A stretch of 24,181 bases of DNA from a virus: IMG/VR virus record IMGVR_UViG_3300043411_001889, positions 1 through 24,181 of that record. One strand, 5' to 3'. Below the pieces are notes generated by a model. The model was not told where the DNA came from and searched no databases. It was given only the letters and a program-made list of their open reading frames with translations. The translations under genes and the position numbers were made by a program. Positions 3,951 to 23,037 of the stretch are shown here, piece by piece. How positions within the stretch are numbered: the first letter of the stretch is position 1; the number at the start of each line of letters is the position of its first letter.

Positions 3951-3954
3951 TTAA

Positions 3955-4560: not shown

Positions 4561-4568
4561 CCAAATAA

Positions 4569-5036: not shown

Positions 5037-5060
5037 TAATTAAGAATTTTAATCAGAATT

Positions 5061-5082
5061 TTATTTTTTATAATCTATTTAT
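5061..5082 (+). promoter_or_regulatory. Candidate phage promoter before the GIY-YIG gene
   Basis: TATTTAT (5076-5082), continuing to TATTTATAG, is preceded 15 nt upstream by TTATTTTTT (5061-5069) in the 63-bp gap before 5100. The gap also holds a direct repeat of AGAATTTTA just upstream. TTTAATC/TTTTAATC followed by GAATT precedes the box here and in the gap before 1448, which strengthens the case for a shared control element. Confidence 0.42.
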
Positions 5083-5099
5083 AGAAAAAAATCTGATAT

Positions 5100-5957
5100 A
5101 TGAAAAATAAATCAAAATCATGGGAAGAAATAAAAAATACCTTACCGACGAAGAAAAACGAGCAGCTAAACAAGAATGGAATAAAAAATATTATCAAAAA
5201 AATAAAAAAAAAATTGACAGATATTCTAAAAAACAATATCGAAATAGAACGGAAAAATCATAATGAAAAAAGTGGCATATACTTAATTTATTGTCTTGAA
5301 AGTGAAAAATTTTATATAGGAAGTGCTACTGATTTAATTAAACGACGTGATTCACACTTATCATATTTAAGAAACAATAAACATTCAAATTTAAAATTAC
5401 AAAGAGCATGGAATAAATATTTAGAAAGCAATTTTAAATTTTATATAGTTGAAATAGTTGAAAATCCTACTGATTTAATTGAACGTGAACAATATTATTT
5501 AGATACATTATTGTCTGCAAGAACTAATTATAGAATATTCGACTCGATTGGTTATAATATTGCAGAAAACGCATTAAGACCGCTGCTTAATAAAACATTG
5601 TCATTAGAAGCTAAAAAGAATATTAGTATAAAAAATTCAGGTAAAAACAACGGGATGTATGGTCGAAAAATGAGCGAGGAAGCTAAGGAGCATTTAAGAC
5701 AAAATGGAAGTAAATTTTGGCTGAACAAAAAACTTCCTGCTGAATTAATAGAAAAAAGACAAAAAACAAGAATTAATAATGATAATATTTTAAAAGGCAG
5801 TAGAAATCCATGGGCTAAATTAACAGAACAACAAGTGTTAGAAATAAGAAAACAATATAAAGATGGATTGAGAATTTGTAATTTGGCGAAGCAGTTCAAT
5901 CAATCAACATCAAACATTTGTGATGTTGTACATAGAAAATCTTGGAAACATATATAA
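5100..5957 (+). CDS. GIY-YIG homing endonuclease with NUMOD3 and C-terminal HTH; N-terminus probably frameshifted
   Basis: A 285-aa frame. The nuclease domain (about 58-150) has GIY at 59-61, YIG at 72-74, R82/R83 and the acidic residue region ERE (128-130), the normal GIY-YIG active-site set. A NUMOD3-like segment follows (GKNNGMYGRKMSEEAKEHL, 181-199), then a C-terminal helix-turn-helix (about 239-285, AKLTEQQVLEIRKQY). Together these match Seg-like phage mobile endonucleases. The first 55 residues are Lys/Asn/Ile-rich and unlike the family, whereas another frame across the same bases reads a typical lead segment (separate entry), so the real N-terminus may start at 5120. The gene sits between the cupin and the reductase and ends two bases before the latter, so it was probably inserted into the sugar operon. 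Confidence 0.82.
   Translation: MKNKSKSWEEIKNTLPTKKNEQLNKNGIKNIIKKIKKKLTDILKNNIEIERKNHNEKSGIYLIYCLESEKFYIGSATDLIKRRDSHLSYLRNNKHSNLKLQRAWNKYLESNFKFYIVEIVENPTDLIEREQYYLDTLLSARTNYRIFDSIGYNIAENALRPLLNKTLSLEAKKNISIKNSGKNNGMYGRKMSEEAKEHLRQNGSKFWLNKKLPAELIEKRQKTRINNDNILKGSRNPWAKLTEQQVLEIRKQYKDGLRICNLAKQFNQSTSNICDVVHRKSWKHI
5120..5263 (+). other. Out-of-frame 47-codon segment encoding a typical endonuclease lead
   Basis: Read from the ATG at 5120, in a different frame from the GIY-YIG frame, this gives MGRNKKYLTDEEKRAA, then KQEWNKKYYQKNKKKIDRYS, ending in TEKS-stop at 5261. A KYLTDEEK start followed by a YYxKNKxK repeat is a common N-terminus of phage GIY-YIG and related proteins. The stop falls just before the codons for NEKSGIY of the nuclease domain. 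Removing one A from the run at 5253-5257 would join the two frames as RTENHNEKSGIY. The segment is therefore probably the true N-terminus, split off by a one-base indel in an A-tract (other runs: 5196-5202 and 5204-5213), a sequencing error or a slippage site. Confidence 0.5.
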
Positions 5958-5959
5958 TC

Positions 5960-6781
5960 ATGAAAAAAACAAAAATAGTAATATTAGGAAGCACTGGTAT
6001 GCTTGGGGTTGGCGTAAGCAAAACATTGCTTAAGTGTGATAATTTTGAAATTTATTTTTCTCACAGAGAGGAAAATCAAAAAAATGGGGAAAACTCATTT
6101 GTGTTCAATGCTAATAACCCAGATTTTAATTCAATTCCAGAGTGTGATTATATAATAAACTGTATAGGAATTATTAAACCATTTATGAATAAAGATATGT
6201 CTGGTAGCATATATGTTAATTCTATATTTCCAAGAGAATTAGCAAAGCACTGTAATAGTAAAGATATAAAATTAATACACATCTCAACAGATTGTGTTTA
6301 TAGCGGATTAAAAGGCAAATACATTGAGTCAGATCTACATGACACTATTGATGAATATGGGAAGAGCAAATCATTAGGCGAGGATATAGAGAACTCTATG
6401 GTGCTACGTACCAGTATTATTGGTGAAGAAAAATACAATTTTGCAAGTTTGTTATCGTGGATAAAATCACAAGCAGGCAAAGAGGTTAATGGGTTTACTA
6501 ATCATTATTGGAACGGTGTCTTAACGGATTATTATGGCGTAATATGTAAGCAAATAATTGAGAAAAATTTATTTGAAAATGGACTTTTTCACATTCACTC
6601 TGAGGTGGATTTGACCAAGTGTGAAATTTTACAATTGTTTAATGAAAAGTTTAATTTAGGGATAAAAATAAATCCAATTAAGGATAAAAATCTAGTAGAC
6701 AGAACATTAAGATCTTCTAAGAGTTTACAAGAAAAATTAAATATTCCTAGTTTTCCAACAATGGTTGATCAGTATCTTTAA
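5960..6781 (+). CDS. RmlD-like dTDP-4-dehydrorhamnose reductase (extended SDR)
   Basis: A 273-aa reductase. The NAD(P)H motif is GSTGMLG (10-16), the active-site strand is STDCVYSG (109-116, RmlD pattern STDYVFDG), and the catalytic pair is Y133/K137 in YGKSK, followed by GE (140-141) and LRTSIIG, all in the order of the RmlD substrate-binding family. It would reduce the 4-keto group of a nucleotide sugar, the last step of making a dTDP-rhamnose-like donor. The start at 5960 (MKKTKIVILG) is chosen over an in-frame ATG at 5942, because it puts the Rossmann strand at residue 5 and lies two bases after the endonuclease stop rather than overlapping it. Its last 35 bp overlap the 3' end of the convergent minus-strand gene. 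Confidence 0.88.
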   Translation: MKKTKIVILGSTGMLGVGVSKTLLKCDNFEIYFSHREENQKNGENSFVFNANNPDFNSIPECDYIINCIGIIKPFMNKDMSGSIYVNSIFPRELAKHCNSKDIKLIHISTDCVYSGLKGKYIESDLHDTIDEYGKSKSLGEDIENSMVLRTSIIGEEKYNFASLLSWIKSQAGKEVNGFTNHYWNGVLTDYYGVICKQIIEKNLFENGLFHIHSEVDLTKCEILQLFNEKFNLGIKINPIKDKNLVDRTLRSSKSLQEKLNIPSFPTMVDQYL

Positions 6782-7304
6782 TTTGAACTATTGGCTCTTT
6801 AAAACATGCCATTACATTTTTTGGGAATGTATGAAATTTTTGTAACTCGTTTTCAAAATCCATTAAATCTTCACCATCACATTTAGATATTAGTCTTTTA
6901 ATGTCTTTGGTAATATATACGCCTCCATTTAAAATAAATGGATCTCCAAAAGAAAAATAATGTAAATGCCAATCCCACTTGACAATGTCTTCTGTTTCTG
7001 ATAGCGGAACCAACTTCATTGGGGACTCATATTTTTTTGAAAAATTGGCATGCTTATTTAAGTTAAGAGAAAACGAGAACATTGACGGATCCTCAATTAA
7101 ACAAGATTCAACTTTGGATTCATCAAAATCTGCCATTATAAATTCTGGATTTTGAACAAAACATACTAATGGTTCCTTGATTTCATTTAATATGGTTAAT
7201 AGTGTGTTTTTAAAGTCTTCGCCATATGTGTCCGTATTTATGTAAGAAACAATTTTATTCGTTTCAATATTTGACATATTGCCAAAATTAAGATAGTGTA
7301 TCAT
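6747..7304 (-). CDS. Probable glycosyltransferase-like (GT-A related) protein
   Basis: A 185-aa protein. The order LVCFVQNPEFIMADFD (about 46-61), FSFSLNLN (76-83), a W-x-W pair (WDWHLHYFSFGDPF, about 110-123) and LNGGVYITKDI (125-135) resembles the second half of small GT-A-like proteins that lie beside glycosyltransferase genes, where the pattern is 'FSLRLG ... W.W ... YPLS.DG.I'. Here the DG is NGG. The assignment is by pattern memory and moderate at best. The ATG lies 17 bp inside the upstream GT2 gene, so the two are probably translated together and may act as a pair. It ends with TAG at 6747-6749, inside the convergent reductase gene. Confidence 0.6.
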   Translation of the reverse strand: MIHYLNFGNMSNIETNKIVSYINTDTYGEDFKNTLLTILNEIKEPLVCFVQNPEFIMADFDESKVESCLIEDPSMFSFSLNLNKHANFSKKYESPMKLVPLSETEDIVKWDWHLHYFSFGDPFILNGGVYITKDIKRLISKCDGEDLMDFENELQKFHTFPKNVMACFKEPIVQIKDTDQPLLEN

Positions 7305-8142
7305 TTTTTTGTTCTAAAATGTAATTGTCAATTTTATTGAAATTTGGTTTATTTTCTAAATCTGCAATAATATCCATTTCTAATTCTTTGTTTGCAATAA
7401 TTTCAGTGTTTTTAACATATACTGCTTTATCATTTTGATAAACATTTTCAAATCCAGCGCATTCCATCAGTGGAATTGCTAAAACATTTTCTGTAAAAGT
7501 GTTATACCATTGATTGTTTTCGTTTTTAAAAGCATTATAGTTTGGATCAGCTTCAATCATCCTTCTGTATAGTCCGCCCCTAAATGTTAGTGGAGAATTA
7601 ATTTTAAAATGATTATTTCTTAAATTATTAAATTGCGGTTCATCTAAAAAAATAACAGGCTCATGTTTTCCTTTGCTATTTGAGTGTCCGCCAAATGTCA
7701 TCCAACAATTTTTGGCATTATAAATTGCATTTATTTGAGATAAACTTAATTTATTCATTAACCAATCATGACCATTTAGTAAAACCACTATATCATCATC
7801 ATTCTCTACAAAATTAAATACTCCATTGTGAAAATTAACTAAATCACCATTTCTATTAGGAGAACGCCATGCAATCATTTTTTTACACTTAGTCTTTTCT
7901 AATAGCGGGTGCGAATATTCAATAATCAACTCTCCTCCATCATCATATAGTGGTTTACCATCAGTGTCAACCTTATATTCGCCAGCGGGTATTTTATTGT
8001 ATGATTCATCAGTTGATGAATCATCTATAAACAGTATTTCATAATCATCATAATCTTGTAAAAGAAGATTATTTATACACACATCGAAGAATTTCCCAGG
8101 ATTATAAAAAGAAACAATTATTTTTATTTTGTTGGTTTTCAT
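7288..8142 (-). CDS. GT2 family glycosyltransferase with altered DxD motif
   Basis: A 284-aa protein with a GT-A start: IIVSFYNPGKFF (8-19), INNLLLQDYDDYEILFIDDSS (about 23-43, the UDP-binding 'VDDGS'-type strand) and N-rich loops. The metal-binding motif expected as LDGDDWL is instead LLNGHDWL (N123, G124, H125, D126), so two of the usual acidic positions are replaced. The C-terminal part (ENVLAIPLMECAGFENV, about 219-234) follows the 'mfPllEMAG' pattern of this subgroup, then YVKN. It would transfer a sugar from a nucleotide donor to a glycan, protein or DNA; the acceptor is not visible. The gene lies beside fibre genes and facing the sugar-nucleotide genes, which fits a joint pathway. It overlaps the next gene by 17 bp. 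Confidence 0.82.
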   Translation of the reverse strand: MKTNKIKIIVSFYNPGKFFDVCINNLLLQDYDDYEILFIDDSSTDESYNKIPAGEYKVDTDGKPLYDDGGELIIEYSHPLLEKTKCKKMIAWRSPNRNGDLVNFHNGVFNFVENDDDIVVLLNGHDWLMNKLSLSQINAIYNAKNCWMTFGGHSNSKGKHEPVIFLDEPQFNNLRNNHFKINSPLTFRGGLYRRMIEADPNYNAFKNENNQWYNTFTENVLAIPLMECAGFENVYQNDKAVYVKNTEIIANKELEMDIIADLENKPNFNKIDNYILEQKNDTLS

Positions 8143-8405: not shown

Positions 8406-11400
8406 TTAACTTAATCTAACTAATGTTGCTGGGTAAGTTGCCGCATTAAGAGTATAAGTAAATGCGGAAACATTACTTGTTAATGCGCTAAATATTGATG
8501 AGGTTGATGATAACCATGTTGCGGCAGCGCCAGTTCCGCCACTTGATATTCCAAAAATTGGAATTCCATTGGTAATTGCAAACGCAGTAACTGAAACAGT
8601 TGTTGCTCCAGTTGAAACACTTGTTAAATAATATAACCCAGGTGATAAAGATTGATTTATATTTATTGATTTCATGCCAGTTGAAGAAGCACTATCAATA
8701 GTACCTGCATCAAGAACTAAACTATTTGGAATTAAATTTGTGCTATCATAGATTCCTAATCTTAATAAAGAATTTGTTCCACCAGTTGTGGTTACGTTTA
8801 TTCCAATTCTATCTAATGTTATTTGTCTAGAAACAACAAATGGGATAAAAAAATATGTGTTTGTTGCGTGTGCAAGTGTTGTTGATGTAGCCAATCCAAC
8901 ACTGTTCATTCCATACCATCTTTCAAAACTTGTTGTTCCAGCTTTTCTATATGAAGCAATATCGTTTCCAAAAACATTTGCTAATGGAGTACTTCCTGAA
9001 AAATATGTTCCACCCGTAATTGTTCCTGCTGATAAATTATTAATTGTTGTTGAAGCCGATGTTATGTTAACTCGAACATTTGTTGAACCTGTTCCATCAG
9101 TAAATAATTTTATGCTTTTATTTGAAGTGGTATTTCCTATCCATAAATCATTACCAGTTGAATATAAATAACCATCATTTGCAGAACCAACATAACCAGT
9201 AAATGTGGATGAATTAATACCCATATCAATATAATTCACACTTTCAGTTCCATTATTGGCTGTTGCAACTATATCTGAACTAGCCTGAGTTCCATTATGA
9301 ATATTTCTAATGTTTAATTGAGAATATGTTAAAGCAGAAGCAATTCCAACAAACACATTTGAATAAGAACTTGGTTGAACATCATATGCTATAATTCTTT
9401 CTGGGTTGGTTGTTGAAGCAGATGCGGTATTAATTTTTAAATATTTTGTTGTTGCAGTTTGTGCATCTAAAAGCCCACTAACATTTAAATCCATTGTGGA
9501 AATAGTTCCATTGCTATTATCAATAACTCCATTTGTTATATATAAACTATTATTATCAGCAACAATATCACCAACCTGAATAAAAATACCATTATCAAAT
9601 TGTGCAGCAGTTGCACCAGTAACAATTAAGTTATCTATTGTTAAACCAGTGACATTAACAGATTGGAATGTTGCTGTTCCTGCAGTAAATGTGTTAATTC
9701 CATTATTAACTGTTGCTCCTCCAGATGATGTTGCTCCAGTATAAGTAATAGTCGTAGAACTTAACTGATGTATAATAGCAATTCCTGTTCCTGCTGATAA
9801 CGTTGATTGAAACACTTCTCCAGTAGAATCTGTCTTTAAAAAAATAGTTGATAATGCAGGTGAGTTTGTTAATGATTTAATTAATAATTTAGGAACTAAT
9901 ACAGTATTGCTTGTTGTTAAAGTGTAACCAGATCCGCCGATAATTGCCGAATTTATTACTGCAGTAATTGTATTATTAGAACCAGCCACAATAGTTGACC
10001 CAGTACTGGTATTAATAAGATTAGTGCTTCCAGCTAAAATAGAGTTTAATCTTGAATTGTTTATTATTTCATTATAACTACCCCCTAAAATAGAATTATA
10101 ACTAAAAAGAAAAGGGTCTGTGCTTGATCTAATTTCATTTCCACGTCCTCCAACAATTGATGAAAGATAACTATTATTAATAAGATTAGCATTTCCAGCT
10201 CCAATAAATCCATACCTTGATGTGCCAATACCATTGCTTACACCTGCAACTATTGCGCAATAATTTGATGTCCCGTAAGGCGGTGTTATACCTAAGTATC
10301 CTGGAGAAAAATATCTACCAATACTGTTTCCTACACCACCGCCAATTACAGAGCTATAAGATAATGCAATAATATTATTGGTTCCTGCTCCAATAAAATT
10401 ATTATAACTGTTATATGGGTTACTGTTATATAACCAAAAATAACCAGAAATTTTATTGTTAGAACCAGAAGATATACTTGAACTGGTTGAATGTTCTCTT
10501 ATTACATTTCCTCCGCCTGCCCCTATAAAACTTTGAGTACTATTTTTTTCTATTTTATTTGTTTGACCACCAATTATAGTTGAAAAATTTGAGATTCCAG
10601 ATATAACATTTCTATATCCGCCAACCACAGAATAATCACCATTAATATATCCAGTGTTGGCTTGTCCTAAAACTGCGCTTGTGTTGCCTACTTGTGAATA
10701 TTGCCAAACATAAGCACCAGTTGGTATTGGTGTGCCAACACTGTTAATTGTTATTAAATTTCCAGATTCAGTAATTGTTGTTGTTCCAAGACCAGTTAAG
10801 CTTTTAAACTGTAAGGTTGATCCAGATTTTTGAATAAAAATACTTGTTCCACTTGAAATTGTTTGTGCTGTTGTTATAAAAATAGCACCTATATTTGTTC
10901 CAGCGCTTAATATTGTCCCACCACTTAAAGTTCCAGCGGAAAGAAAAGATAAAGTTCCTCCAGATATATTAACGGTTGGATTTGATGATGTTCCTCCAGT
11001 GTATGTGTTTAATCCATCCTGAATATTTGTGCTTGACCCAACCCCTCCAGTTCCAGCCGAGAAAGTTAATAATCCTCCATCATCAGAAATTGAAATGTTA
11101 ATTCCAGAAAACGACTTAAATAATAGATTGTTATTTGTTTTATTAATAAAAACAGAATTTCCTCCGCCAGAAGTAATACCGCTTCCAACAAATAAATTTT
11201 GAATATTATTGCTTCCACTTAATATTGTTCCGCCACTTAAAACAGAAGAATTAAAATATGGAGTATAAACACTGTTTGCTGAATCAGATATAGTAAGCAA
11301 ATCTCCAAAGCTAGATCCGCTAAACACAATTGTCCCATCATTTAGCACATATAGTGTTACAGCACTAGTGGACCCACTAAACATTATAGATGGATTTCCG

Positions 11401-11435
11401 CCAGACGTATTTGGAGTTATTAAAATATTACCCAT
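8406..11435 (-). CDS. Tail fibre with YadA-like head repeats and C-terminal receptor-type domain
   Basis: A 1009-aa fibre protein, Ser/Thr/Gly/Asn-rich and almost free of charged residues. Residues 1-235 are beta-rich stalk with repeated 'SGGTILSG' phrases; about 265-505 hold roughly a dozen YadA-like left-handed beta-roll repeats (pattern SxIxGGxxNxI); 508-560 is a linker shared with the 1990-aa fibre (NTVLVPKLLIKSL). Residues about 711-781 contain IVATANNGTESVNYIDMGI and GYLYSTGNDLWIGNT, a module I know from many marine phage tail proteins. The last 170 residues (from ERWYGM, 838) look like a beta-sandwich with LRLGIYDSTNLIPNS and SLSPGLYYL, probably the receptor-binding end. It starts two bases after the 1990-aa gene stops, so the two are co-translated parts of one fibre set. 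Confidence 0.85.
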   Translation of the reverse strand: MGNILITPNTSGGNPSIMFSGSTSAVTLYVLNDGTIVFSGSSFGDLLTISDSANSVYTPYFNSSVLSGGTILSGSNNIQNLFVGSGITSGGGNSVFINKTNNNLLFKSFSGINISISDDGGLLTFSAGTGGVGSSTNIQDGLNTYTGGTSSNPTVNISGGTLSFLSAGTLSGGTILSAGTNIGAIFITTAQTISSGTSIFIQKSGSTLQFKSLTGLGTTTITESGNLITINSVGTPIPTGAYVWQYSQVGNTSAVLGQANTGYINGDYSVVGGYRNVISGISNFSTIIGGQTNKIEKNSTQSFIGAGGGNVIREHSTSSSISSGSNNKISGYFWLYNSNPYNSYNNFIGAGTNNIIALSYSSVIGGGVGNSIGRYFSPGYLGITPPYGTSNYCAIVAGVSNGIGTSRYGFIGAGNANLINNSYLSSIVGGRGNEIRSSTDPFLFSYNSILGGSYNEIINNSRLNSILAGSTNLINTSTGSTIVAGSNNTITAVINSAIIGGSGYTLTTSNTVLVPKLLIKSLTNSPALSTIFLKTDSTGEVFQSTLSAGTGIAIIHQLSSTTITYTGATSSGGATVNNGINTFTAGTATFQSVNVTGLTIDNLIVTGATAAQFDNGIFIQVGDIVADNNSLYITNGVIDNSNGTISTMDLNVSGLLDAQTATTKYLKINTASASTTNPERIIAYDVQPSSYSNVFVGIASALTYSQLNIRNIHNGTQASSDIVATANNGTESVNYIDMGINSSTFTGYVGSANDGYLYSTGNDLWIGNTTSNKSIKLFTDGTGSTNVRVNITSASTTINNLSAGTITGGTYFSGSTPLANVFGNDIASYRKAGTTSFERWYGMNSVGLATSTTLAHATNTYFFIPFVVSRQITLDRIGINVTTTGGTNSLLRLGIYDSTNLIPNSLVLDAGTIDSASSTGMKSININQSLSPGLYYLTSVSTGATTVSVTAFAITNGIPIFGISSGGTGAAATWLSSTSSIFSALTSNVSAFTYTLNAATYPATLVRLS

Positions 11436-11437
11436 AG

Positions 11438-14400
11438 TTATTTTTTAAATTCCGTTATTAATTTACTAACATCTTTTCTTTCTGCAAATACAGTAAAGAA
11501 ACAATTTATTTTAATAAAAGGAATTTTATTAGATATAAATATTTTGTTATTTTCTATTTTTTTAACCACCAACCATTGTAAGTGTTTGTGCGGAGTTAAC
11601 TGAATCGTAATTGAGTTTTCATCAACTAATCCAATCCATTCCTCTGGCAATTCTATTGTGTTTTTATTAATTAATTTACCTCTATAATATACTCCGTGTT
11701 CAGGACCCTCTAAGTTTCCATACTGAAGCATCTTCCCTGTTTTTGTAGGGTGATCAATTAAGAATGATTTTGTAGTGGCGGCAAAATTTCCTTGCACTAA
11801 CGCATCTCCAACTACATGTAATTTTTTTGTTGCGTCTGGAGAAGCTGTATTTATAAATATTGTTGTTTGATCATTTCTTAATAAACCATCAGAAGTCCAA
11901 GTTGTGCCGTTATATCTAGGTACAAAATTAGTTGTTCCTCCAGTGATGTCAGTTATGTTGTGTTTGTGACTCCAAGGTGTAAAAATTTGATATAAATTTG
12001 TAGATCCACTATTTATTGTTCCAGCGCTAAAAGTACTTGCTGATAATCCTGCGCTAAAAGTTGTCGCACTTGAATTTCCAGTATATGAAATACTTAAAGA
12101 TGTAGCTCCAGAAGTTATTCTTATTCCATTTGATGCTACAAGCGTTCTAAATTCCAAATTTGGAGTATTTGTTTGTGCAAAAACCCCTTGACCATTTATT
12201 GTTCCAGTTAAATTTATACCACCAGTGATAGTTCCAGTTGCTAAAGACGTTTTATTTACTTGACCAGTGGCACCATCTACGGTGAGTGCATAAGTTAAAG
12301 ATCCTGCAAATGATTTTATTATTAAATTAGGAACTAATACAGTATTATTATACCCTAAAGAATAATTATAGCCACCTATAATAGCGCTCCTAGTTGCTTT
12401 TATATAGTTTCCATCACCACCAATTATTGATGAGTGTTTAGAACTTTCAATGGTATTGTTTAAACCATGTGAAATGAAATTTCCATAACTATCTCCTGGA
12501 GAATTATTTGCAATAAGAATTCTATTATATTTACCATTTATTATTGATGAAAATCCTCCGTCGTAAATCGTGTTACCAGATCCAGTCCCAACAAATCCAT
12601 AGTTGTATCTATTACGGTCTGCGCTATAAGTAGGTCCGATTTTAGAAGATTTGCCTGACCCAATAATTGAATATTTTGATTTTAATATGTAGTTAAAAAA
12701 TCCATTTCCAATAGAAGAGTTATAGCAATCATATAAGTAATTTGTTTGTCCATTTAACACAAAAGAATATTTAGAAGTGCCATCTATTGAATTTTCTCTT
12801 CCGTTTAAAATTGAATTATATTTTGAATTGGTATTACTGTTTAATACATTGTTTTTACCTAATCCTATAAATCCGTTAGTAGTTACACTTATCTGATGTC
12901 CATTACCGCCTATAATAGAAGAGAGGTTTGAACTTGTATTTATAGTATTATTTGTTCCGTTTAATATTGAAGAATATGCACTCTTAACAGTTGTTGTACT
13001 ACCTGCTGCTATGCTAAAATTAGCATTTACAGTAGTTGTAAAATTATTTGCTCTAATAGAAAAACTTCCAGTTTGCCCAGATCTCCACAAATCTGGTACC
13101 CCTAAACTGCCCATGGTTAAATTAGATTCAACCATAACACCGTTTGCAATATTTGTTATAGTAATACCACTGCCTCCACTTATTGATTTGAATTGCAGTA
13201 TATTATTCGATTTTAAATTAAATACTTGACCAGTGTTAACGGCAACTCCAATATTTGCTCCGCTATATACAAATAAATTTTGTATGTTTGTGTTGCCAGA
13301 ATTTATTGTTCCTCCAGAAAAAGTTGTTGCAGAAAAAGGTCCTGTAAATGTGCCACCAGATATGTTAACAGTTGGAAATGTTGAAGTGCCACCAGTATAA
13401 GTGTTTAAACCATTTTGAATAAATGTTGATGCTCCGCCAGCAGTAGATTCAATAACAACAACACCCTCAATGTTATTAGTGGTTATAGTTATATTTGAAC
13501 CAGCCGATAAAGTTCTGAAAGACATTACTCCAGCTGTTGTAGCGCTATATACTTCTCCAGTACCAATACCTATATTAACTCCAGTGGTTACGGTTCCAAC
13601 TCCACCTGCATATGCGGCTCCTAAAATTAAATGTCCATTAGGTTGTGCTAATACAAAGCTATTTGTTAAACTGGTTAATGATCTTCCAACTCCATGATCA
13701 AAATACATTGTATTAGAAGAAAGAGCAATCATTTCTATGCTACCCAAAACCACTGAGTTTTGAGCGCTGCCAGAAACAACATTCCTTATTCCGCTTATAA
13801 TTGTACTATTAAATCCTGAAACTGAATTACCGTATCCATTTAATATTTGCCCAGCGCTTATGAAAACGCTGTTTCCAGAACCATTTAGAGTTGTGCCATA
13901 CCTAGTGTTGGATCCAGCGTGTGCACCTCGTGTTATTCTGGATTGTGTACCAAACATTAAGGCGGCAGTTGTAAGAGAAGTGGAATAATTATATGATCCA
14001 CCCAAAATAGTTGAGAAGTTTCCATAAGCAGTACCACTTAATCCATTTAATATCGATGTTAATCCACCTCTAGTTTTATTTCTAAATCCAGAAGCTATTA
14101 AAGAATCTCCATTAAAGGAACTAACGTAACTAATAGTGTTGTACCCACCATTTAATATTGTTCCTCTTGCTAGAATTGAAATGCTATTCCATACACCATT
14201 ACCAATAAACTGCTGCGCCCCTCTTGTTGAATTATGCTGTCCATTAATTATTGTGCTAAAAGTTCCGTTTCCACTAATTATATTGTCAAAACCATTATTT
14301 ATTGATGCAAAATTACTTTGAATTAATGTATTTCCAGATCCGTTTATTATGCCATTATTAGAATTATTTATTAAATTATAATTACCATTTCCAATAAAAG

Positions 14401-17400
14401 CATTAGTAGCAGTAATTGCAGAGTTTCTAAGACCAGATACTATAGCACTATAAGATGATGATCTTATTAGATTTGCCCTACCCTGTACAATTGACGAGTA
14501 AGTACTTGAGCTAATAATATGTTCATATCCATTTATAATAGAAGAGTAAGTTGAATTTAAATTTAATGTATTGTGACTACCTCCTAAAATACTTCCGTGC
14601 ATACTATCTGTCAAATAATTAACGGTACCATTTAATAATGTTCCAAACATTGAATTGGTCAAAAATGTTTCTAAACCATTTCCAATAACAGCATATGGAC
14701 TGTTGTTAATAATATTTCTAACTCCATTTAGCACAGTTGCGTATTGTGAAGTTGTTGCAGTATTGCTTAATCCGTTATTAATAGATGATAAATGAGAATA
14801 GTTTATTATTGAATTTAATCGTCCGTTTTCAATGGTAGAAAAATTGCTTAATTTAATTGAGTTGTTAAATCCATTTATAATTGTTCCGCCAGTTGAATTA
14901 TTTGTTAAATTATTTTGTCCATTAATAATTGCCATATAAGCCCCAGTTCTTGCTGACGACGTAGAACCGTTTCCTATAAAACCTTTTCTGGAATTATATA
15001 TTGTGTGATTATTTCCTTGTACTATTGTATTAAAATATCCAATAGATAAAGAGTTGCCAGAACCGTTTATTATGGAACCATAATTAGAATATGTTCCTAC
15101 TATGTTTCTTTTCCCTTGATTTAATAAAACAAAACGATTATTTCCTAAAATTGTATTCCCAGATCCGTGTCCAATAAAAGAATACTCAGCAATGTTGGTA
15201 TTATTTAAACCAGCTATAATTACGTTGTTTAACCCTATAATATTATTGTTAAACCCATTTAAAATTGTTGAATAACTTCCGCTTAAACTATTTAAATATC
15301 CATTACCGTTAAGAGAAAATCTTCCTCTCGCGTTAATAGCAGAACCATTTAGTATTGTTGAATATTCTGATGTAGCTGAATTTGAGAAACCATTTAATAT
15401 TGTAGCAAAAGAATAGCTGGTGTTGTTGCCAAAACCATTACCAATAAAGTTTGATGTCGATCTTGATAAATTATTAAAACCGTTTACAACAACAGAGTAT
15501 GTGTCTAAAGATCTATTTCTTGTTCCACTAATAATTGCTGCTCCAAATCCACTTAATGAATTCAATCTTCCGCTTCCTAAAAAAGAATAGTTAGAATTAA
15601 CATTTAAAGTGTTTCCACTACCTCCAATTAAAGTTGAAAATGCACTGTTATTTACATTGTCTTTGCCAGCGGTTAAACCAAAATTTTGCGTTGTATAATT
15701 ATTTCCACCCTGTAACTGAACTGACATTTGTCCAGTCTGTCCGCTCTCCCATAATGTGTGGCGAATTGTCGTATATGTTAATCCAGATATAATTTCAGTT
15801 GCTTGACCAGCTGATAAATTTCCTATTGATCCACCAGAAAACCCAGTAAAAGTGCCGCCCAAAACAAAGTGTCCATCTGGTTGCGCTAATACTATGTTTA
15901 GAGTTGCACTTGTTAATGACCTACCCACCCCATGATCAAAATACATTGTATTAGAGGAAAGAGCAATCATTTCCTCTCCTCCTAAAACCACGGAGTTTTC
16001 AACGTTTCCAGAAATAACATTTCTCATTCCACTTATAATCGTGCTATTAAATCCTGAAACCGAATTATCAAATCCGTTTAGTATTTGTCCAGCGCTTACA
16101 AAAACGCTATTTCCAGATCCGTTTATTGTAGTTGCATAAACTGTATTATATACTGTTTGTGATCCCTTGGTTATGTATTGACCAGAACCAAACATTAAAG
16201 CGAACGCAGTCAGAGATGTTGAGTAATTATTAAATCCTCCTAAAATAGCCGAGTGGTTACCATAAGCAGTACCACTTAATCCATTTAATATTGTAGATAG
16301 TCCTCCCTTTGTTTTATTTCTAAATCCAGAAGCTATTAAAGAATCTCCATTAAAGGAACTAACGTAACTAATAGTGTTGTACCCACCATTTAATATTGTT
16401 CCTCTTGCTATTATGGATATACTATTTCCTACGCCATTTCCAATGAAATGTTGTGTTCCATTTACTGAGTTATATCTACCATTAACTATGGTGTTGTAGG
16501 CTCCGCTTCCGCTCGCGGCATTTTTATAACCATTAATAATTGTTGAAAAATTTCCATTTGAACTATTAATGTAACCGTTTCCAATAAGAGAAAATCTACC
16601 TAAGCTATAATTCCATGCACCGTTCAATACTGTGCTGTATTCAGTTTTTGCTGTGTTTGAATTTCCGTTTAATATTGTTGAGAATGAAACATTTGTTCTA
16701 TTCCCAAGACCATTTCCTATAAAATTAAACGCATTAAAAGCAATGTTGTTTTCACCATTACCAATAAACGAATAATCAGCACGCGTTCTATTGTAAAAAC
16801 CAGATACAATAGATGAACTAAACCCGCTTAAATAATTTCTTCTTCCAGCTCCATTAAAAGCAAAATTAGATTCTGCCCATATTGTATTACCGCTTCCTCC
16901 AATAGATGTTGAGTATAACGAATTATTGTATCCATCTTTGCCAGCGGTTAATCCAAAATTTTGATATGTAAAGTTATTTCCGTGTTGTAGTTGGACGGAC
17001 ATATATCCAGTTTGTCCACTTTCCCACAATGTGTGTCTGATTGTTATTTGAGGACTTCCTGAAATTATTTCAATTGCTGTGCCAGCTGATAAATAAGGAA
17101 ATATTAAGCCTGTGCCACCACTCACTTCAAATGATATGGTATCTCCAGTGTGCATTAATAAATATGGACCTACTGCACTAAGTGAATAAAACTCATAGAA
17201 ATAGTTAGAGGTGTTAAATTGTTTAAACACGCCGAAACCATCTCCAACATTTGTTGCATTTATTAACGAATAAGTGGATGTGGATAAACTATCAACATAC
17301 CAACGGAGTGTCCTAAGATTAACTACGTCTTTGTCGTGATCTGGATCTGCGCAGTTTTCACCCTTATAATTGTTAAAATCTAAATGATATTTTAATTGTT

Positions 17401-17410
17401 CTTGATACAT
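11438..17410 (-). CDS. Giant tail fibre (1990 aa) of about 70 YadA-like head repeats in three blocks
   Basis: A very long fibre. Residues 1-125 form the N-terminal attachment region. Block A (about 160-490, some 20 repeats), block B (about 585-1235, some 40) and block C (about 1478-1690, some 12) consist of 12-18-residue units of the type YSTILNGxxNxI, a left-handed beta-roll like the YadA head but with Asn in place of the usual Ala/Ser. Each block is capped by LWxSGQTG (near 128, 553 and 1441); A and B end in MIALSSNTMYFDHGVGRSLT. The C-terminus (1880-1985: SFLIDHPTKTGKMLQYG, LEGPEHGVYYRGKL, ERKD) is a beta-rich end seen in other phage fibres. It follows a terminator and a candidate promoter, so it can be expressed apart from the upstream genes. 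It probably trimerises as a host-binding or whisker-like fibre. Confidence 0.87.
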   Translation of the reverse strand: MYQEQLKYHLDFNNYKGENCADPDHDKDVVNLRTLRWYVDSLSTSTYSLINATNVGDGFGVFKQFNTSNYFYEFYSLSAVGPYLLMHTGDTISFEVSGGTGLIFPYLSAGTAIEIISGSPQITIRHTLWESGQTGYMSVQLQHGNNFTYQNFGLTAGKDGYNNSLYSTSIGGSGNTIWAESNFAFNGAGRRNYLSGFSSSIVSGFYNRTRADYSFIGNGENNIAFNAFNFIGNGLGNRTNVSFSTILNGNSNTAKTEYSTVLNGAWNYSLGRFSLIGNGYINSSNGNFSTIINGYKNAASGSGAYNTIVNGRYNSVNGTQHFIGNGVGNSISIIARGTILNGGYNTISYVSSFNGDSLIASGFRNKTKGGLSTILNGLSGTAYGNHSAILGGFNNYSTSLTAFALMFGSGQYITKGSQTVYNTVYATTINGSGNSVFVSAGQILNGFDNSVSGFNSTIISGMRNVISGNVENSVVLGGEEMIALSSNTMYFDHGVGRSLTSATLNIVLAQPDGHFVLGGTFTGFSGGSIGNLSAGQATEIISGLTYTTIRHTLWESGQTGQMSVQLQGGNNYTTQNFGLTAGKDNVNNSAFSTLIGGSGNTLNVNSNYSFLGSGRLNSLSGFGAAIISGTRNRSLDTYSVVVNGFNNLSRSTSNFIGNGFGNNTSYSFATILNGFSNSATSEYSTILNGSAINARGRFSLNGNGYLNSLSGSYSTILNGFNNNIIGLNNVIIAGLNNTNIAEYSFIGHGSGNTILGNNRFVLLNQGKRNIVGTYSNYGSIINGSGNSLSIGYFNTIVQGNNHTIYNSRKGFIGNGSTSSARTGAYMAIINGQNNLTNNSTGGTIINGFNNSIKLSNFSTIENGRLNSIINYSHLSSINNGLSNTATTSQYATVLNGVRNIINNSPYAVIGNGLETFLTNSMFGTLLNGTVNYLTDSMHGSILGGSHNTLNLNSTYSSIINGYEHIISSSTYSSIVQGRANLIRSSSYSAIVSGLRNSAITATNAFIGNGNYNLINNSNNGIINGSGNTLIQSNFASINNGFDNIISGNGTFSTIINGQHNSTRGAQQFIGNGVWNSISILARGTILNGGYNTISYVSSFNGDSLIASGFRNKTRGGLTSILNGLSGTAYGNFSTILGGSYNYSTSLTTAALMFGTQSRITRGAHAGSNTRYGTTLNGSGNSVFISAGQILNGYGNSVSGFNSTIISGIRNVVSGSAQNSVVLGSIEMIALSSNTMYFDHGVGRSLTSLTNSFVLAQPNGHLILGAAYAGGVGTVTTGVNIGIGTGEVYSATTAGVMSFRTLSAGSNITITTNNIEGVVVIESTAGGASTFIQNGLNTYTGGTSTFPTVNISGGTFTGPFSATTFSGGTINSGNTNIQNLFVYSGANIGVAVNTGQVFNLKSNNILQFKSISGGSGITITNIANGVMVESNLTMGSLGVPDLWRSGQTGSFSIRANNFTTTVNANFSIAAGSTTTVKSAYSSILNGTNNTINTSSNLSSIIGGNGHQISVTTNGFIGLGKNNVLNSNTNSKYNSILNGRENSIDGTSKYSFVLNGQTNYLYDCYNSSIGNGFFNYILKSKYSIIGSGKSSKIGPTYSADRNRYNYGFVGTGSGNTIYDGGFSSIINGKYNRILIANNSPGDSYGNFISHGLNNTIESSKHSSIIGGDGNYIKATRSAIIGGYNYSLGYNNTVLVPNLIIKSFAGSLTYALTVDGATGQVNKTSLATGTITGGINLTGTINGQGVFAQTNTPNLEFRTLVASNGIRITSGATSLSISYTGNSSATTFSAGLSASTFSAGTINSGSTNLYQIFTPWSHKHNITDITGGTTNFVPRYNGTTWTSDGLLRNDQTTIFINTASPDATKKLHVVGDALVQGNFAATTKSFLIDHPTKTGKMLQYGNLEGPEHGVYYRGKLINKNTIELPEEWIGLVDENSITIQLTPHKHLQWLVVKKIENNKIFISNKIPFIKINCFFTVFAERKDVSKLITEFKK
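13616..15760 (-). repeat. Internal duplication module B of the giant fibre gene
   Basis: Codes for residues about 551-1265, from HTLWESGQTG to LAQPNGHLIL. It is a second copy of module A (15851-17035). The starts of the copies are 425 codons apart and their ends 746 codons apart, so module B holds about 321 extra residues of head repeats, roughly in the region 14200-15250. Confidence 0.75.
14073..14172 (-). repeat. 100-bp identical tract, copy in module B
   Basis: Identical over 100 bp to 16311-16410, at an offset of 2238 bp (746 codons). It encodes ARGTILNGGYNTISYVSSFN and the following GDSLIASGFRNKT. Bases on both sides differ between the copies, including at silent positions. Confidence 0.85.
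15851..17035 (-). repeat. Internal duplication module A of the giant fibre gene
   Basis: Codes for residues about 126-520, from HTLWESGQTG to AQPDGHFVLGG, with about 20 head repeats. Landmarks shared in order with module B are NFGLTAGKD, YSFIGNG or YSFLGSG, RGTILNGGYNTISYVSSFNG, NGLSGTAYGN, SVSGFNSTIISG and SSNTMYFDHGVGRSLTS. Confidence 0.75.
16311..16410 (-). repeat. 100-bp identical tract, copy in module A
   Basis: Partner of 14073-14172. A second nearly identical pair, at the same 2238-bp offset, lies at 13692-13735 and 15930-15973 (one mismatch in 44 bp) and encodes MIALSSNTMYFDHG. Confidence 0.85.
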
Positions 17411-17435: not shown

Positions 17436-17456
17436 ATAAATATTTTTATAAAATAA
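17436..17456 (-). promoter_or_regulatory. Candidate phage promoter before the giant fibre gene
   Basis: On the minus strand TTATTTTATAAAAA is followed directly by TATTTAT (box at 17442-17436), ending 25 nt before the ATG at 17410. It lies just past a hairpin terminator, the expected place for a new transcription start, which makes this the best-supported member of the set. Confidence 0.48.
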
Positions 17457-17480
17457 AAGGGGAACTTAAATTCCCCCTTT
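17456..17480 (-). terminator. Hairpin terminator between two fibre genes
   Basis: On the minus strand AAAGGGGGAA, loop of about six bases, then TTCCCCTTT and a T-rich run (TATTTTAT). The stem has one extra G/C as a bulge. It lies 26-50 bp after the stop of the 477-aa fibre gene, in the longest gap of the window (95 bp). The G/C run is striking in such AT-rich DNA. The mirrored arm also ends in TTTATTTT on the plus strand, so it could work in both directions. Confidence 0.75.
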
Positions 17481-17505: not shown

Positions 17506-18939
17506 TTATTTGAAAAGAATTTGCACAATACCATCTTCGTTATTTGGTTGTTTAATTATATTTAATACTGGATATTTTGTTCCATTAATAGCCTTTCCTT
17601 GTGAATTAACATCTACAAATTTAGATGTGATATATTCTGCTGTACGAACCTTTAATTTACCCAATAGTCCTATAGAAACCCATTCTTTCCTTTCTGTTCT
17701 TGGAATATATGTTTTTTCTGGATCATAAAATGGATTTATTCTTTTGACTTTAGTTTCTTCTATTACAGTGTAATGCATAGTTAAATCCATATCTATTTCA
17801 ATTCCTTTTGGTGATTTTATTTTTGGAATTTCTTTATAAAGTTTATTGTTTGATTTATTTTTAAAAATTTTTAAATTATTAAGTTCTGGTATTACTATCG
17901 TTTGATATATATCCATTATTGGTTCATCCCATTCATTTAATAAAAACATGTTTTTCCAATAAGAAACTGCTCCATCTCCTAAAACCGCTGGATTAATTGA
18001 AACCACTCCAATTACATTTTCATTTCCTATTTTCACCTTATCTCCATCAAGTGATACGAAATAACCCTTTCTATCTTGATTTATAATGTTATCATCTGAC
18101 CATTGAAATAATTCTGCATAATCAGCTCCACTTCCAATTGTTCCACCATTAAAATATCCTTTTCCATTTCCATGTCCAGCATCTACGTTGAATCTAATTT
18201 TATTATAAGTGGTATCAGCAATGTATCCTCCAGAGGCTAAAACAAAATCTCCTACATATCTAGTATATCCACCTTGCCCCCACACTGTGCTTAGTTGGTG
18301 TGCTGCAATATTTTGTGTGCCACCTAAAACCATGGAATATGTTGCATTTGCTCTATTATCTTGCCCATTAATCACCGTAGAATATGATCCCATTGCGCCA
18401 TTTCGCAATCCATTTATTACTGTGGCGAATGAGGTGTTTCCAGAAGAATTGTTTCCATTAAGAACTGTTGCGTAAGAACCATTTGTTTTATTGCTAAACC
18501 CATTTACTATGGTACCTAAATTTCCCAATGCAAAATTATTTCTTCCTCCTCCAACAAACTGAAGGGAAGCTAAATTTGCCCTATTGTAAATTCCGCCAAC
18601 AATTGATGACCAATTAGAGGAAATGCTATTTCCGCTTCCTGCTCCAATTAAACTTCCAGGACCAGTTATTGTATTAAAAGATCCTTGAATAATAGAGGAA
18701 GATGTTGCTTGAGATCTGTTAAAAAATCCACCCAAAACAGTAGAAAAGGAACTTGTTGTTATTCCGCTTTTTCCCATTGTGAAACAATATGAAGAACCAG
18801 CGACATTTCCAGTCCCGTTCCCAACAACAATTGATTTAACCCCAGTGCCTGCAGTAAAAGTAAAAAGTGAAGCACTATAAAAGCTATTTACCTTTACTCT
18901 ACCTTGATCTAGGGTGTCCCCGCTATTTATAAATGGCAT
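17506..18939 (-). CDS. Tail fibre with YadA-like repeats and C-terminal Peptidase_G2 autocleavage domain
   Basis: A 477-aa protein in three parts. Residues 1-60 are a short N-terminal region (VKSIVVGNGTGNVAGSS). Residues about 62-215 hold some ten YadA-like beta-roll repeats (FSTVLGGFFNRS, YSTVINGQDNRA). From about 268 onward, GSGADYAELFQWSDDN, NQDRKGYFVSLDGDKVKIG and VIGVVSINPAVLGD match the Peptidase_G2 (IMC) domain of phage tailspikes and appendages; that family folds the trimer and then cuts itself off near its own N-terminus. The extended end (about 340-477) is charged and soluble, unlike the repeat part, as expected of a removable chaperone. The mature fibre would keep about 270 residues. 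Preceded by a candidate promoter and followed by a terminator. Confidence 0.85.
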   Translation of the reverse strand: MPFINSGDTLDQGRVKVNSFYSASLFTFTAGTGVKSIVVGNGTGNVAGSSYCFTMGKSGITTSSFSTVLGGFFNRSQATSSSIIQGSFNTITGPGSLIGAGSGNSISSNWSSIVGGIYNRANLASLQFVGGGRNNFALGNLGTIVNGFSNKTNGSYATVLNGNNSSGNTSFATVINGLRNGAMGSYSTVINGQDNRANATYSMVLGGTQNIAAHQLSTVWGQGGYTRYVGDFVLASGGYIADTTYNKIRFNVDAGHGNGKGYFNGGTIGSGADYAELFQWSDDNIINQDRKGYFVSLDGDKVKIGNENVIGVVSINPAVLGDGAVSYWKNMFLLNEWDEPIMDIYQTIVIPELNNLKIFKNKSNNKLYKEIPKIKSPKGIEIDMDLTMHYTVIEETKVKRINPFYDPEKTYIPRTERKEWVSIGLLGKLKVRTAEYITSKFVDVNSQGKAINGTKYPVLNIIKQPNNEDGIVQILFK

Positions 18940-18961: not shown

Positions 18962-18982
18962 ATAAATATCTTTTAAAATTAA
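18962..18982 (-). promoter_or_regulatory. Candidate phage promoter before the 477-aa fibre gene
   Basis: On the minus strand TTAATTTTAAAAGA is followed directly by TATTTAT (18968-18962), 22 nt before the ATG at 18939. It has the same 14-nt spacing as the box before 17410. Its upstream element overlaps the last codon of the 509-aa gene. Confidence 0.45.
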
Positions 18983-20508
18983 AGAAATGTTTCGTTTAAT
19001 GTAAAATCATAAAATTGATTACCCCACAATATGCTCAAAATAATGTCAAAATTAGTGTCTCTAGTCAAATTAACCGTTAAACTTTGATTTGGATATAAAC
19101 CAATTGGCATATCTGATGGTGGATTTATGTTTAATGTATATACTCCAGCTTGTAGACTTCCGAAATCATAAAAACCATTTACATCAGAAACAACAGAGTT
19201 TAAATATCCAACTCCTCCACCTAATGGCTGTGTTACTCTACTTAGTATGTCTGTGCTTGATTTGTTGTCTGCACCCAAATATATTTTGCTTTTATTAACT
19301 TCTACATATAAACTTATATCTACACCGCTCATATAAGTATGTCCAGTGTAAGCGCTTGTTATAGAGTCATATGATCCATCATTTTTGTAGTTTTTATACG
19401 TGTGACCAGAAAGCGTAAAAGCATTATCGCTACCTGTTGTTGCGCTTAAATAATCACAATAGTTTTCCACATATTGCCTGGTTCCAAAAATATTTTCAAT
19501 TTCTTTTACGTTGCCAATTCTATATAAAAAATTCTTTTTTGGTGTCAACGGCGTAGAATATGTACGAATAAACTCTGTATCACCAGGTTGGTGAGGAACA
19601 TCAAATTCTACAAATTCTCGTGATTGATCAAAATCATAATTTGTAACATCATATGTTACTTGTAGTTTATATCTATTTCCATCTCCAACATTATTAAAGT
19701 TGAAAATTGGTGTAAACGTTTGCATTACACCGTTTACCGAAGGCTTTCTCCTACCTTCACTAACGTATAAATTTGGTGCTTGAGGGACTATGAAATAGGT
19801 AAAAAGTGCTCCATATACAGGTTGACCACTCATTGTTCCTCCAGTTATTAAATGTAATCTTGGACTACTCAACAAAGATGATGATGACCCAGTATAGTAA
19901 GGTATAACTGTAATTCCTGATCCGTTAATTGGAATTTGTATATCCCCCCACGTAAGATTATTTCTTTTTTCAAATTCAAAATTAATATCAATAAAATATT
20001 GAGCTTTATCAATAAGTAAATCTTCGATATAGCTATTTTCTTTTTTAACTTTTTGTGGTAATTGTAATGTATATCCACTTGTGCTATTTAGGGATGCAGC
20101 AACATAAGTGGCTGCTAATCCATATGAAAAAAATGGCTCAGTAATTCTGGAAACGACTTGATTTTTTTTTGTAACATCTGTAGGATTTTCTACAAAATCA
20201 TCCCACTCCTCATAAGGAATTCTATATATGTTGTGTACTACGTTTGAATTTCCAGATAAACTACCAGTGTTGCCAGTAAAATTAATTGTAATTAATTTTT
20301 GATTATTTAAATTTGTTGAAATGCCATCCACGGTTTGTTCATAAAATTTATAAGTAGCACCGTTGATATCAAACACTGGAACTAAAAACAAAAAAGGAGA
20401 ACTTTGATTAGGTGTAATAGAAACATCAATTTCATTTGTAAACGCCTGTGAAATTGAATCGTTTGTCCCGACAGTTTGTGATATATTTAATGTTGAATTA
20501 TTAGCCAT
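18979..20508 (-). CDS. Phage tail/baseplate structural protein with SdrD-B-like C-terminal domain
   Basis: A 509-aa protein. Most of it is beta-rich with no motif I recognise: an N-terminal part (ISQAFTNEIDVSITPNQSS), a helical insert (VKKENSYIEDLLIDKAQYFI, about 155-174) and a middle with YKLQVTYDVTNYDFDQSREF. Residues about 439-465 (SDVNGFYDFGSLQAGVYTLN) are the signature of SdrD-B/carboxypeptidase-regulatory-like Ig domains, which often form rods or bind surfaces. The gene begins six bases after the 840-aa baseplate gene and is surely co-transcribed with it. It probably joins fibres to the baseplate or forms a baseplate rim, judged by position only. Confidence 0.72.
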   Translation of the reverse strand: MANNSTLNISQTVGTNDSISQAFTNEIDVSITPNQSSPFLFLVPVFDINGATYKFYEQTVDGISTNLNNQKLITINFTGNTGSLSGNSNVVHNIYRIPYEEWDDFVENPTDVTKKNQVVSRITEPFFSYGLAATYVAASLNSTSGYTLQLPQKVKKENSYIEDLLIDKAQYFIDINFEFEKRNNLTWGDIQIPINGSGITVIPYYTGSSSSLLSSPRLHLITGGTMSGQPVYGALFTYFIVPQAPNLYVSEGRRKPSVNGVMQTFTPIFNFNNVGDGNRYKLQVTYDVTNYDFDQSREFVEFDVPHQPGDTEFIRTYSTPLTPKKNFLYRIGNVKEIENIFGTRQYVENYCDYLSATTGSDNAFTLSGHTYKNYKNDGSYDSITSAYTGHTYMSGVDISLYVEVNKSKIYLGADNKSSTDILSRVTQPLGGGVGYLNSVVSDVNGFYDFGSLQAGVYTLNINPPSDMPIGLYPNQSLTVNLTRDTNFDIILSILWGNQFYDFTLNETFL

Positions 20509-20514
20509 GAATTA

Positions 20515-23037
20515 TTATGATTGAGCAGGAGTTGATGTTTCAATTGAATTAATATTTGTTATTTGAGTTGTGGAATTTGTTAATCCAGTAACAAAAGAAG
20601 AAGAATCTAATTGTAGTATTCCATTGGTTGGGTAATGTATTACTAAACCATTAAAAGTATTTGCAAAGTTTATTCGCCTGTTTTGTGTACTTGAAAAAGT
20701 TGCAGAAATAGCAAATTGATTTATATCTAAATCATATCCACTAGACACCTCACTATCAACATTTGAAGCATACACCGTAGATGTGTTTTGCGATGGAACT
20801 ACGCCTTCAACAGATGATGCATATATGGGTAGCGTTTCTAAGTTGCTTAAAATCATAGAAACTGTTGTCGCTGATATAACTGGGTTTAAATCTGGCGGTA
20901 ATCTTTTTTGAAATTCAGATCCATCATTAATTCCAGGTTGGTATACAAACTTTTGACGATTAAATAAAGTATTTCTATAAATTTTCCCAACACCTTCCAA
21001 TATGGTAGTGGCAGGAAGAAGCTGCTCTACAAAAGCACTTAAATCATATTCTATTAAATCTAAAAATTTTTCTAATTTTCTAAAATTCAATCTATTAGAT
21101 TGTTCTCCGCTATTCCAATAATAATAAGTTAAATAGACATTTTTTAAATTTGGATAATGATAATTATGTTTATCATTCTCTATGCCAATTATTTTCCTTC
21201 TTGTAATACTAATGTTTTTTACGTATACATAATCTAGCCACTCAGCTATTGTCATACCCGTAATATTATTAGGCATAACTGTTGAAGCAGTTAATAATTG
21301 ATAATATGGTGGCAAAGAAGAATTGGAAGTGCCAGCACTTAAATAACTTAATTGATACCATTCCAGAGAATCGTTTTCAATCGCCGAAGCAGGACTTAAT
21401 TCTATGATGAATTCTTTTGAATTTACCAAGTGTTCAGTCCCTAATATTGTATCCCCTGTATAAATTTTTAAGTTATCAACTTCTTTTATTGGGTCAAATT
21501 CTGGACGCCACTGCTGAATATAGGCATCGCCATTACCGCGTCCCTCTCCACCTTCTTGGAAGGCATAATTTGAAGAATTATAATTAATAAATCCGTTTGA
21601 ATTTATTTTTAAACTTTGAGTTTGTCCTGAATTTGGAGGAAGCGCTTGATTTATTTTATATACAAACTCATTGATATTAACTAATGAATCTGGCGCACCA
21701 ATTAATTTGAAAATAAATTGAAGAGCATTTCTCGTGCCCTTCTTTTTATATAACCAATTAATATTAATAAGTATGTTTTTCCATAATTGAAAATTATAAT
21801 CTTCGAGCGTTTTACCGCTATCATCTTCAGTCGCTAAGTATTCAAATATATCAGCATCGCTAAACAAATTTACATGCTTCCATCCCAAAAGTTTACTTAG
21901 GCGACCCAAAAACTTATTTGGAATATTTTCTAAATTATTATATGTGGTAGTATGAGCATAAGCCAACCCATCAATGTATTGTTTAATAGCATCAAATTCT
22001 TCTGCATATACAGCAACCAAATTTCTATATGTTTCAGAAGACGAATCTAATTCCAAATAATTTTCTGGAATCATCGTTCTTATCATCCAATTGGTTTTAA
22101 TTTCATCAATTTTACTACAATGTCTTAAAATAGTTGTAGTATAGGCGGTGTAATTAGATCCGTATATATCTGGATTAAACCCATCTATGCTTCTTGGCCA
22201 ATCAATATTTTCATTTTCAAATGTATCTGTTTCCTCGTCTGGAACTAAGAAATTACCATCAAAAAATAATTGATATTCAAGATTTGATAATCCTCTTTTA
22301 AATGTGCCATATCTGGCTGGTGATGGTCTAATCCACAACGGAACAGTGGTAGTAGCGGTTGTTCCAGTTCCAATTAGATGACCATTTATCTCAAAAGTCA
22401 AATAACCACTAGATCCAGGTGTGTAAGAAAAATTATTAATTAAATATGTAATACCACTATTTGAAGCACCACTTACAATTTCAATGGCAAATTCATCGTA
22501 GTTATCATACAATGAATAACTATTTCCAGAGGAATTTCCTGACGCATAAATTACGCCACCCTGATTAGTTAAAGCTGAAATTGGAATTGAAAATGTACTA
22601 ACTTCGGTAAACGCATTTTCAGAATAATTAAAAACCGTATTAGCAGATGGATTATTTACTAATATTGCATATGGAAAATTTAAAATAATATTATTAATTG
22701 CTTGCGCAACTTGACTATAATATGAAGAAAAATATGAATAAGCGTTTGGATTTCTTGGGTCAGGATTTAGTTCGTTGCTTTTTGTGTTTAAAACCTGAAT
22801 TGCATCAAAATTACTTCCTGATAAATTATTTAATGTAGAATAAGAGGAAAAACCGCCAGAAAACGCATTGTTATCTAATATATCTAAATCTTGATTTCTA
22901 CTGATCCTAAAGTCACCAAAAGTGAAAATTGAGTCTACGCTAGTGACAGGCTGTCTTTTGTCCTGACCAACATTTGACCATATAGATAAAGAGTCAGCAG
23001 ATATTATAACTGTATTTTCGGTAAAAGCAGTAGCCAT
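20515..23037 (-). CDS. Baseplate/tail protein with P2 gpI-like core
   Basis: An 840-aa protein. The first 330 residues are beta-rich and unique. From about 338 to 460 it turns helical: YRNLVAVYAEEFDAIKQYID, PNKFLGRLSKLLGWKHV (373-389), LWKNILININWLYKKKGTR (418-436) and ALQFIFKLIGAP, then INEFVY. The 'LW..IL.N..wLYK.KGT..al..lf.liGap' order is characteristic of phage tail protein I-like baseplate wedge proteins of contractile tails. A later part (from about 640) has ITRRKIIGIE and PNLKNVYLTYYYW. Its place upstream of the fibre genes is normal for a baseplate gene. The family call rests on pattern memory, and the protein is far larger than P2 gpI, so it is a fused or expanded version. Confidence 0.75.
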   Translation of the reverse strand: MATAFTENTVIISADSLSIWSNVGQDKRQPVTSVDSIFTFGDFRISRNQDLDILDNNAFSGGFSSYSTLNNLSGSNFDAIQVLNTKSNELNPDPRNPNAYSYFSSYYSQVAQAINNIILNFPYAILVNNPSANTVFNYSENAFTEVSTFSIPISALTNQGGVIYASGNSSGNSYSLYDNYDEFAIEIVSGASNSGITYLINNFSYTPGSSGYLTFEINGHLIGTGTTATTTVPLWIRPSPARYGTFKRGLSNLEYQLFFDGNFLVPDEETDTFENENIDWPRSIDGFNPDIYGSNYTAYTTTILRHCSKIDEIKTNWMIRTMIPENYLELDSSSETYRNLVAVYAEEFDAIKQYIDGLAYAHTTTYNNLENIPNKFLGRLSKLLGWKHVNLFSDADIFEYLATEDDSGKTLEDYNFQLWKNILININWLYKKKGTRNALQFIFKLIGAPDSLVNINEFVYKINQALPPNSGQTQSLKINSNGFINYNSSNYAFQEGGEGRGNGDAYIQQWRPEFDPIKEVDNLKIYTGDTILGTEHLVNSKEFIIELSPASAIENDSLEWYQLSYLSAGTSNSSLPPYYQLLTASTVMPNNITGMTIAEWLDYVYVKNISITRRKIIGIENDKHNYHYPNLKNVYLTYYYWNSGEQSNRLNFRKLEKFLDLIEYDLSAFVEQLLPATTILEGVGKIYRNTLFNRQKFVYQPGINDGSEFQKRLPPDLNPVISATTVSMILSNLETLPIYASSVEGVVPSQNTSTVYASNVDSEVSSGYDLDINQFAISATFSSTQNRRINFANTFNGLVIHYPTNGILQLDSSSFVTGLTNSTTQITNINSIETSTPAQS

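Follow-up and report, generated by a model that had tools for sequence, protein, structure and literature searches.

Tetart et al. reportedly found in 1996 that small-domain duplications in the T4 tail fibre adhesin expand host range. Among T4 relatives, passages of PMC2993671 describe intragenic mosaicism together with mosaicism of the tail-fibre genes, and parts of PMC6949934 describe tail-associated tandem repeats of the BACON domain in crAss-like phages, grown by internal domain duplication. Here we analyse a phage fibre gene in which two old, strongly diverged modules share a perfectly identical tract of 100 bp, most likely because recent copying replaced this stretch of one module with that of the other.

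The DNA analysed, referred to as the window, is an entire virus record of 24,181 bases, a single contig. The fibre gene lies in the following neighbourhood.

1943-2986, plus strand: homing-endonuclease-like ORF with LAGLIDADG_3
2970-6781, plus strand: sugar-nucleotide genes, an epimerase, an RmlC-like gene (4569-5036) and an RmlD-like gene (5942-6781)
5100-5957, plus strand: homing-endonuclease-like ORF, GIY-YIG with NUMOD3
7288-8142, minus strand: GT2 glycosyltransferase
8406-11435, minus strand: second fibre-like gene
11438-17410, minus strand: fibre gene, an ORF of 1990 codons (1990 aa)
17506-18939, minus strand: tail gene with a Peptidase_G2 autocleavage domain (Pfam scan)
18979-20508, minus strand: tail gene
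20515-23037, minus strand: tail gene, 840 aa, with 16 related loci in viral contigs at 42-46% identity
23076-24146, minus strand: homing-endonuclease-like ORF with NUMOD1/NUMOD3

The sugar-nucleotide genes and the glycosyltransferase directly adjoin the fibre genes and possibly serve glycosylation of the virion or of the host surface. The three homing-endonuclease-like ORFs lie around the tail module. A terminator-like hairpin at 17456-17480, listed on both strands, sits between the Peptidase_G2 gene and the fibre gene, and windows across it have fold z-scores of about -3 to -4. Two stretches of the tail genes rank near the top for RNA folding in the coding region scanned, one at 19640-19769 (z -5.35) and one at about 21532-21833, where several overlapping windows reach z -2.8 to -4.2.

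The fibre repeats match UspA1 (3pr7) in a phmmer search (E 7.3e-10, residues 199-317) and are, by this match, YadA-like (UspA1-like) beta-roll repeats. The C-terminus (residues 1830-1990) has a 52% match to Flavobacterium phage immuto and also matches Synechococcus phages, both among the matches listed, as well as phrog_17490; by these matches the C-terminal domain is of the cyanophage/Flavobacterium-phage type. It was the only part of the fibre matched in phage records among the matches listed (best 20 of 45), and a module searched by itself against the same records returned none. Predicted as a monomer, module A is nearly all beta at a mean pLDDT of 67.8, and a fold search with that model gave no PDB match at E <= 0.001.

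The two modules and the main difference between them are as follows.

15821-17095, minus strand: module A, residues 106-530
13577-15820, minus strand: module B, residues 531-1278
14282-15244, minus strand: 321 extra codons (repeat turns) in module B, residues 723-1043, their placement within the repeats being ambiguous

Across aligned residues the modules are 68% identical, and the same amino acid is kept in 290 of 421 aligned codon pairs. Because module B has 321 extra codons, the alignment runs at two offsets, 1275 for its 5' part and 2238 for its 3' part. A sequence-only reading of the window had proposed about 321 extra residues, in agreement with this alignment, and strong divergence between the modules elsewhere. 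The divergence proved to extend to silent sites. Outside the tract described below, 54% of codons for a shared amino acid are identical (0.539) against 47% (0.471) expected from codon usage alone, so silent sites there are close to saturation.

Within this diverged background lies an exact direct repeat.

16311-16410, minus strand: identity tract, module A copy, whole codons 335-366
14073-14172, minus strand: identity tract, module B copy

The repeat is maximal at 100 bp and both copies are read in one frame, their offset of 2238 bp being 746 x 3, or 746 codons. The identity including silent sites, as first read from the letters, is thus exact. Codons for a shared amino acid are identical at 32 of 32 positions inside the tract and at 139 of 258 outside, so that silent divergence along the alignment is as uneven as that reading had supposed, and the run of identity far exceeds its flanks, as in a conversion tract. 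The edges are abrupt, with 20 of 60 bp mismatched on one side and 9 of 20 on the other, and they are out of step with amino-acid conservation. Next to the tract, residues 322-333 retain 11 of 12 amino acids but share just 4 of 11 codons, and at residues 490-501 all 12 of 12 amino acids are retained with 7 of 12 codons identical. Protein constraint alone therefore does not yield codon identity. Codons for a shared amino acid were labelled identical or synonymous, and we permuted these labels within classes of equal degeneracy, which as a simplification treats codons as independent. A run of 32 was reached in none of 20,000 shuffles over all codons (longest 19) and in none of 20,000 restricted to the 3' part (longest 24), and the segment score of the tract in none of 5000. 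Under a simple model with the divergence of the flanks, the probability of the tract is about 1e-9. Homogenisation of the 100-bp tract is, on the evidence of silent sites, edges and flanks, well supported.

Two shorter shared stretches lie at the same offset.

16260-16291, minus strand: 32-bp exact island, module A copy, borderline
14022-14053, minus strand: 32-bp exact island, module B copy, borderline
15930-15973, minus strand: 44-bp pair, module A copy, one mismatch
13692-13735, minus strand: 44-bp pair, module B copy, one mismatch

The 32-bp island, which the sequence-only reading did not list, is separated from the tract by a diverged patch of 19 bp. With the tract removed, 77 of 5000 shuffles reached its score; with both removed, the best remaining segment, which falls inside the 44-bp pair, was reached by 759 of 5000. 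By these scores one tract is certain, the 32-bp island borderline and the 44-bp pair ordinary. The 44-bp pair had been put forward as a second sign of homogenisation. It does exist with its single mismatch, but given the common protein sequence its identity is not exceptional, with nothing beyond chance for homogenisation to explain, and we dropped it as independent evidence because 759 of 5000 shuffles equal it.

We favour, at a probability of roughly 0.7, a single young intragenic gene conversion, without crossover, between old duplicated beta-roll modules. An old in-frame duplication would have given modules A and B, which then would have diverged to near saturation at silent sites while beta-roll turns were gained or lost (the 321 codons). 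Much later, about 100 bp would have been copied from module to module without crossover, perhaps up to 151 bp (14022-14172) if the 19-bp diverged patch is enclosed, during recombination-dependent replication or break repair. That patch between the islands fits poorly with a single clean conversion tract, and it also counts against this reading that the tract comes from one contig. The two copies, the near-saturated flanks, the identical tract and its abrupt edges are observed; gene conversion as the copying route and the enzymes for it are our inference. Because no relative carries the tract, the copying can be neither polarised nor dated. RecA family (PF00154) matches were found in none of four relative records, which may be fragments; the model may also miss UvsX of the T4 type. 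A recombination-dependent or UvsX-like system may operate in this phage; UvsX-dependent repair in T4 is described, in part of PMC8262927, as pairing very short stretches of identity.

An island of the same kind would also be produced if the tract were the relic of a recent duplication of the whole module, with imports from other phages having replaced most of one copy and spared 100 bp. Tail-fibre genes are mosaic, and the phages that the C-terminus of this fibre resembles are not those that the module resembles. The imports would, however, have to fall on both sides of the tract. Codon identity is also near saturation in both parts of the alignment (5' part 0.517, expected 0.485; 3' part minus the tract 0.558, expected 0.459), a pattern for which a single conversion is the simpler account. 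We consider the relic unlikely.

The sequence-only reading had left the choice between conversion and selection on DNA, and of this the homogenisation of the 100-bp tract stood. Selection at the nucleotide level, by a regulatory site, an RNA structure or a codon constraint, would hold the tract identical in both modules; the protein segment it encodes is fully conserved too, and the B copy forms a stable fold (z -3.28; -3.05 in the window scan). Yet the two windows that overlap the A copy most, in its own context, give z -1.0 and -1.7, and z falls below -3 in 10 of the 338 windows scanned anyway. Since the B context folds well and the A context does not, a shared RNA structure behind the tract was dropped. 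No Rfam family was matched. Promoter-like sites are at the level of shuffled sequence (31 found, 33.1 expected), with none of those listed falling within the tracts, and the 24-mer core of the tract is missing from the viral and genome records searched. These RNA-structure and DNA-signal tests are weak ones; we regard selection as improbable, somewhat more so than the relic.

A diversity-generating retroelement was also considered and rejected: the tract copies are without differences, and where the 3' parts of the modules differ, changes of every type are seen. A Pfam scan covering 17 proteins found no reverse transcriptase.

Conversion gains some support from paralogues and relatives, where no other paralogous pair in the window or in two relatives has such an island. 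Across 14 protein alignments of the three fibre-like genes in the window, the longest run of identical codons was 6 and codon identity was about random; across 13 alignments of this fibre with those of two relatives, L026 and L031, the longest run was 9. The A-B pair itself is not among the local alignments listed for either comparison. Two fibre genes of the window have in common a 38-nt pair, 92% alike, at 9871-9908 and 12309-12346. A module profile found relatives in eight loci at 37-39% identity, and the module start SAGTAIEI...RHTLWE, read from translations, is present twice in the fibres of L026 and L031. No exact repeat of at least 28 bp occurs in L026-L033. Codons about 1574-1705 of the L026 fibre hold an in-frame tandem duplication of 66 codons (163 of 198 bases alike), and in L017 a different, repetitive gene contains an exact repeat of 58 bp at offset 138 (13762-13957). 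These duplications and the repeat survey indicate that genes of this tail region have duplicated internally and in frame in other cases too; only here was a long island of identity seen in diverged modules. The tract itself was not found by exact pattern in viral or genome contigs, and no relative bearing it was recovered by the module profile in genome contigs or through the 3' part of the module in viral contigs. P0001, compared with 12 relative records, matched five (best 142 bits, 43% identity).

One relative is represented by six near-identical records. Four (L026, L028-L030) share the same fibre of 2342 aa; the other two carry deletions that break the fibre frame, 79 bp at about 13968 in L027 and 128 bp at about 12442 in L033, neither of them between long repeats. 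These deletions may be assembly errors and would otherwise be real variants. They are a point in favour of an assembly artefact, in which near-identical stretches from both modules, or from two strains, were fused into one sequence, as is the origin of the window in a single contig from a virus collection. Against this, a two-copy repeat within one contig has only one linear path. Assemblers merge bubbles only where flanks as long as a k-mer are truly identical and the sequence enclosed is highly similar, so the patch would be near-identical in truth even if merged. An artefact seems a shade less probable still than selection on the nucleotide sequence.

The sequence-only reading had further suggested a switch in fibre length by recombination between the tracts. 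Its arithmetic is right: the copies are direct repeats in frame with each other, 746 codons apart, and loss of that length would leave 1244 aa. The fibres of this phage and its relatives also vary in length (1401, 1990 and 2342 aa). The switch itself found no support. No length variant was found: searches that may skip a phage's own or very near records returned no second record of this phage, and the six near-identical records of the relative show no in-frame module change, their 79- and 128-bp indels being frame-breaking. The loci of the nearest relatives are without exact repeats of 28 bp or more, no site-specific recombinase was seen among the proteins scanned, and the length differences among relatives accompany deep sequence divergence. 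That the tracts are a functional recombination site, kept identical so that a population switches between fibres of 1990 and 1244 aa, is hardly credible. It is very unlikely, if less extremely so, that they are maintained as recombination sites giving in-frame fibres of 1244, 1990 and 2736 aa by ongoing intragenic recombination or conversion without a dedicated recombinase. The tract does leave perfect homology over 100 bp, from which a length change could later be seeded, and unequal recombination could in principle, on rare occasions, delete or duplicate the 746 codons.

Taken together, the gene is a clean example, strongly backed by the statistics, of homogenisation inside one phage fibre gene, and it suggests that modules repeated within a fibre can swap short stretches long after diverging. 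Such exchange would be a route for spreading a change between modules. By itself the tract leaves the known picture of fibre evolution unchanged; tail-fibre mosaicism is known already, and recombination within this repeated fibre gene adds another example. In the literature searched, judged by titles and abstract openings, no paper was recognised that describes conversion from one module of a phage fibre gene to another.

The comparison with described systems is close in some respects and not in others. The repeat turns match the YadA-like head of the trimeric autotransporter UspA1 (3pr7), although UspA1 is a bacterial adhesin and the predicted module A has no significant PDB match. Repeat variation within a phage fibre gene is shared with the adhesin duplications attributed to Tetart et al.; those are reportedly new and alter host range, whereas here an old duplication carries a young conversion tract and no phenotype is recorded. 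The crAss-like BACON arrays of PMC6949934 are likewise tail repeats, in phages of predicted Bacteroidetes hosts, but the domain is different and the terms 'gene conversion' and 'recombination' are absent from its main text. With the T4-related phages, as far as passages of PMC2993671 describe them, our phage shares intragenic mosaicism and mosaicism of the tail fibre; theirs arises between phages, whereas here it would involve two modules of one gene and about 100 bp.
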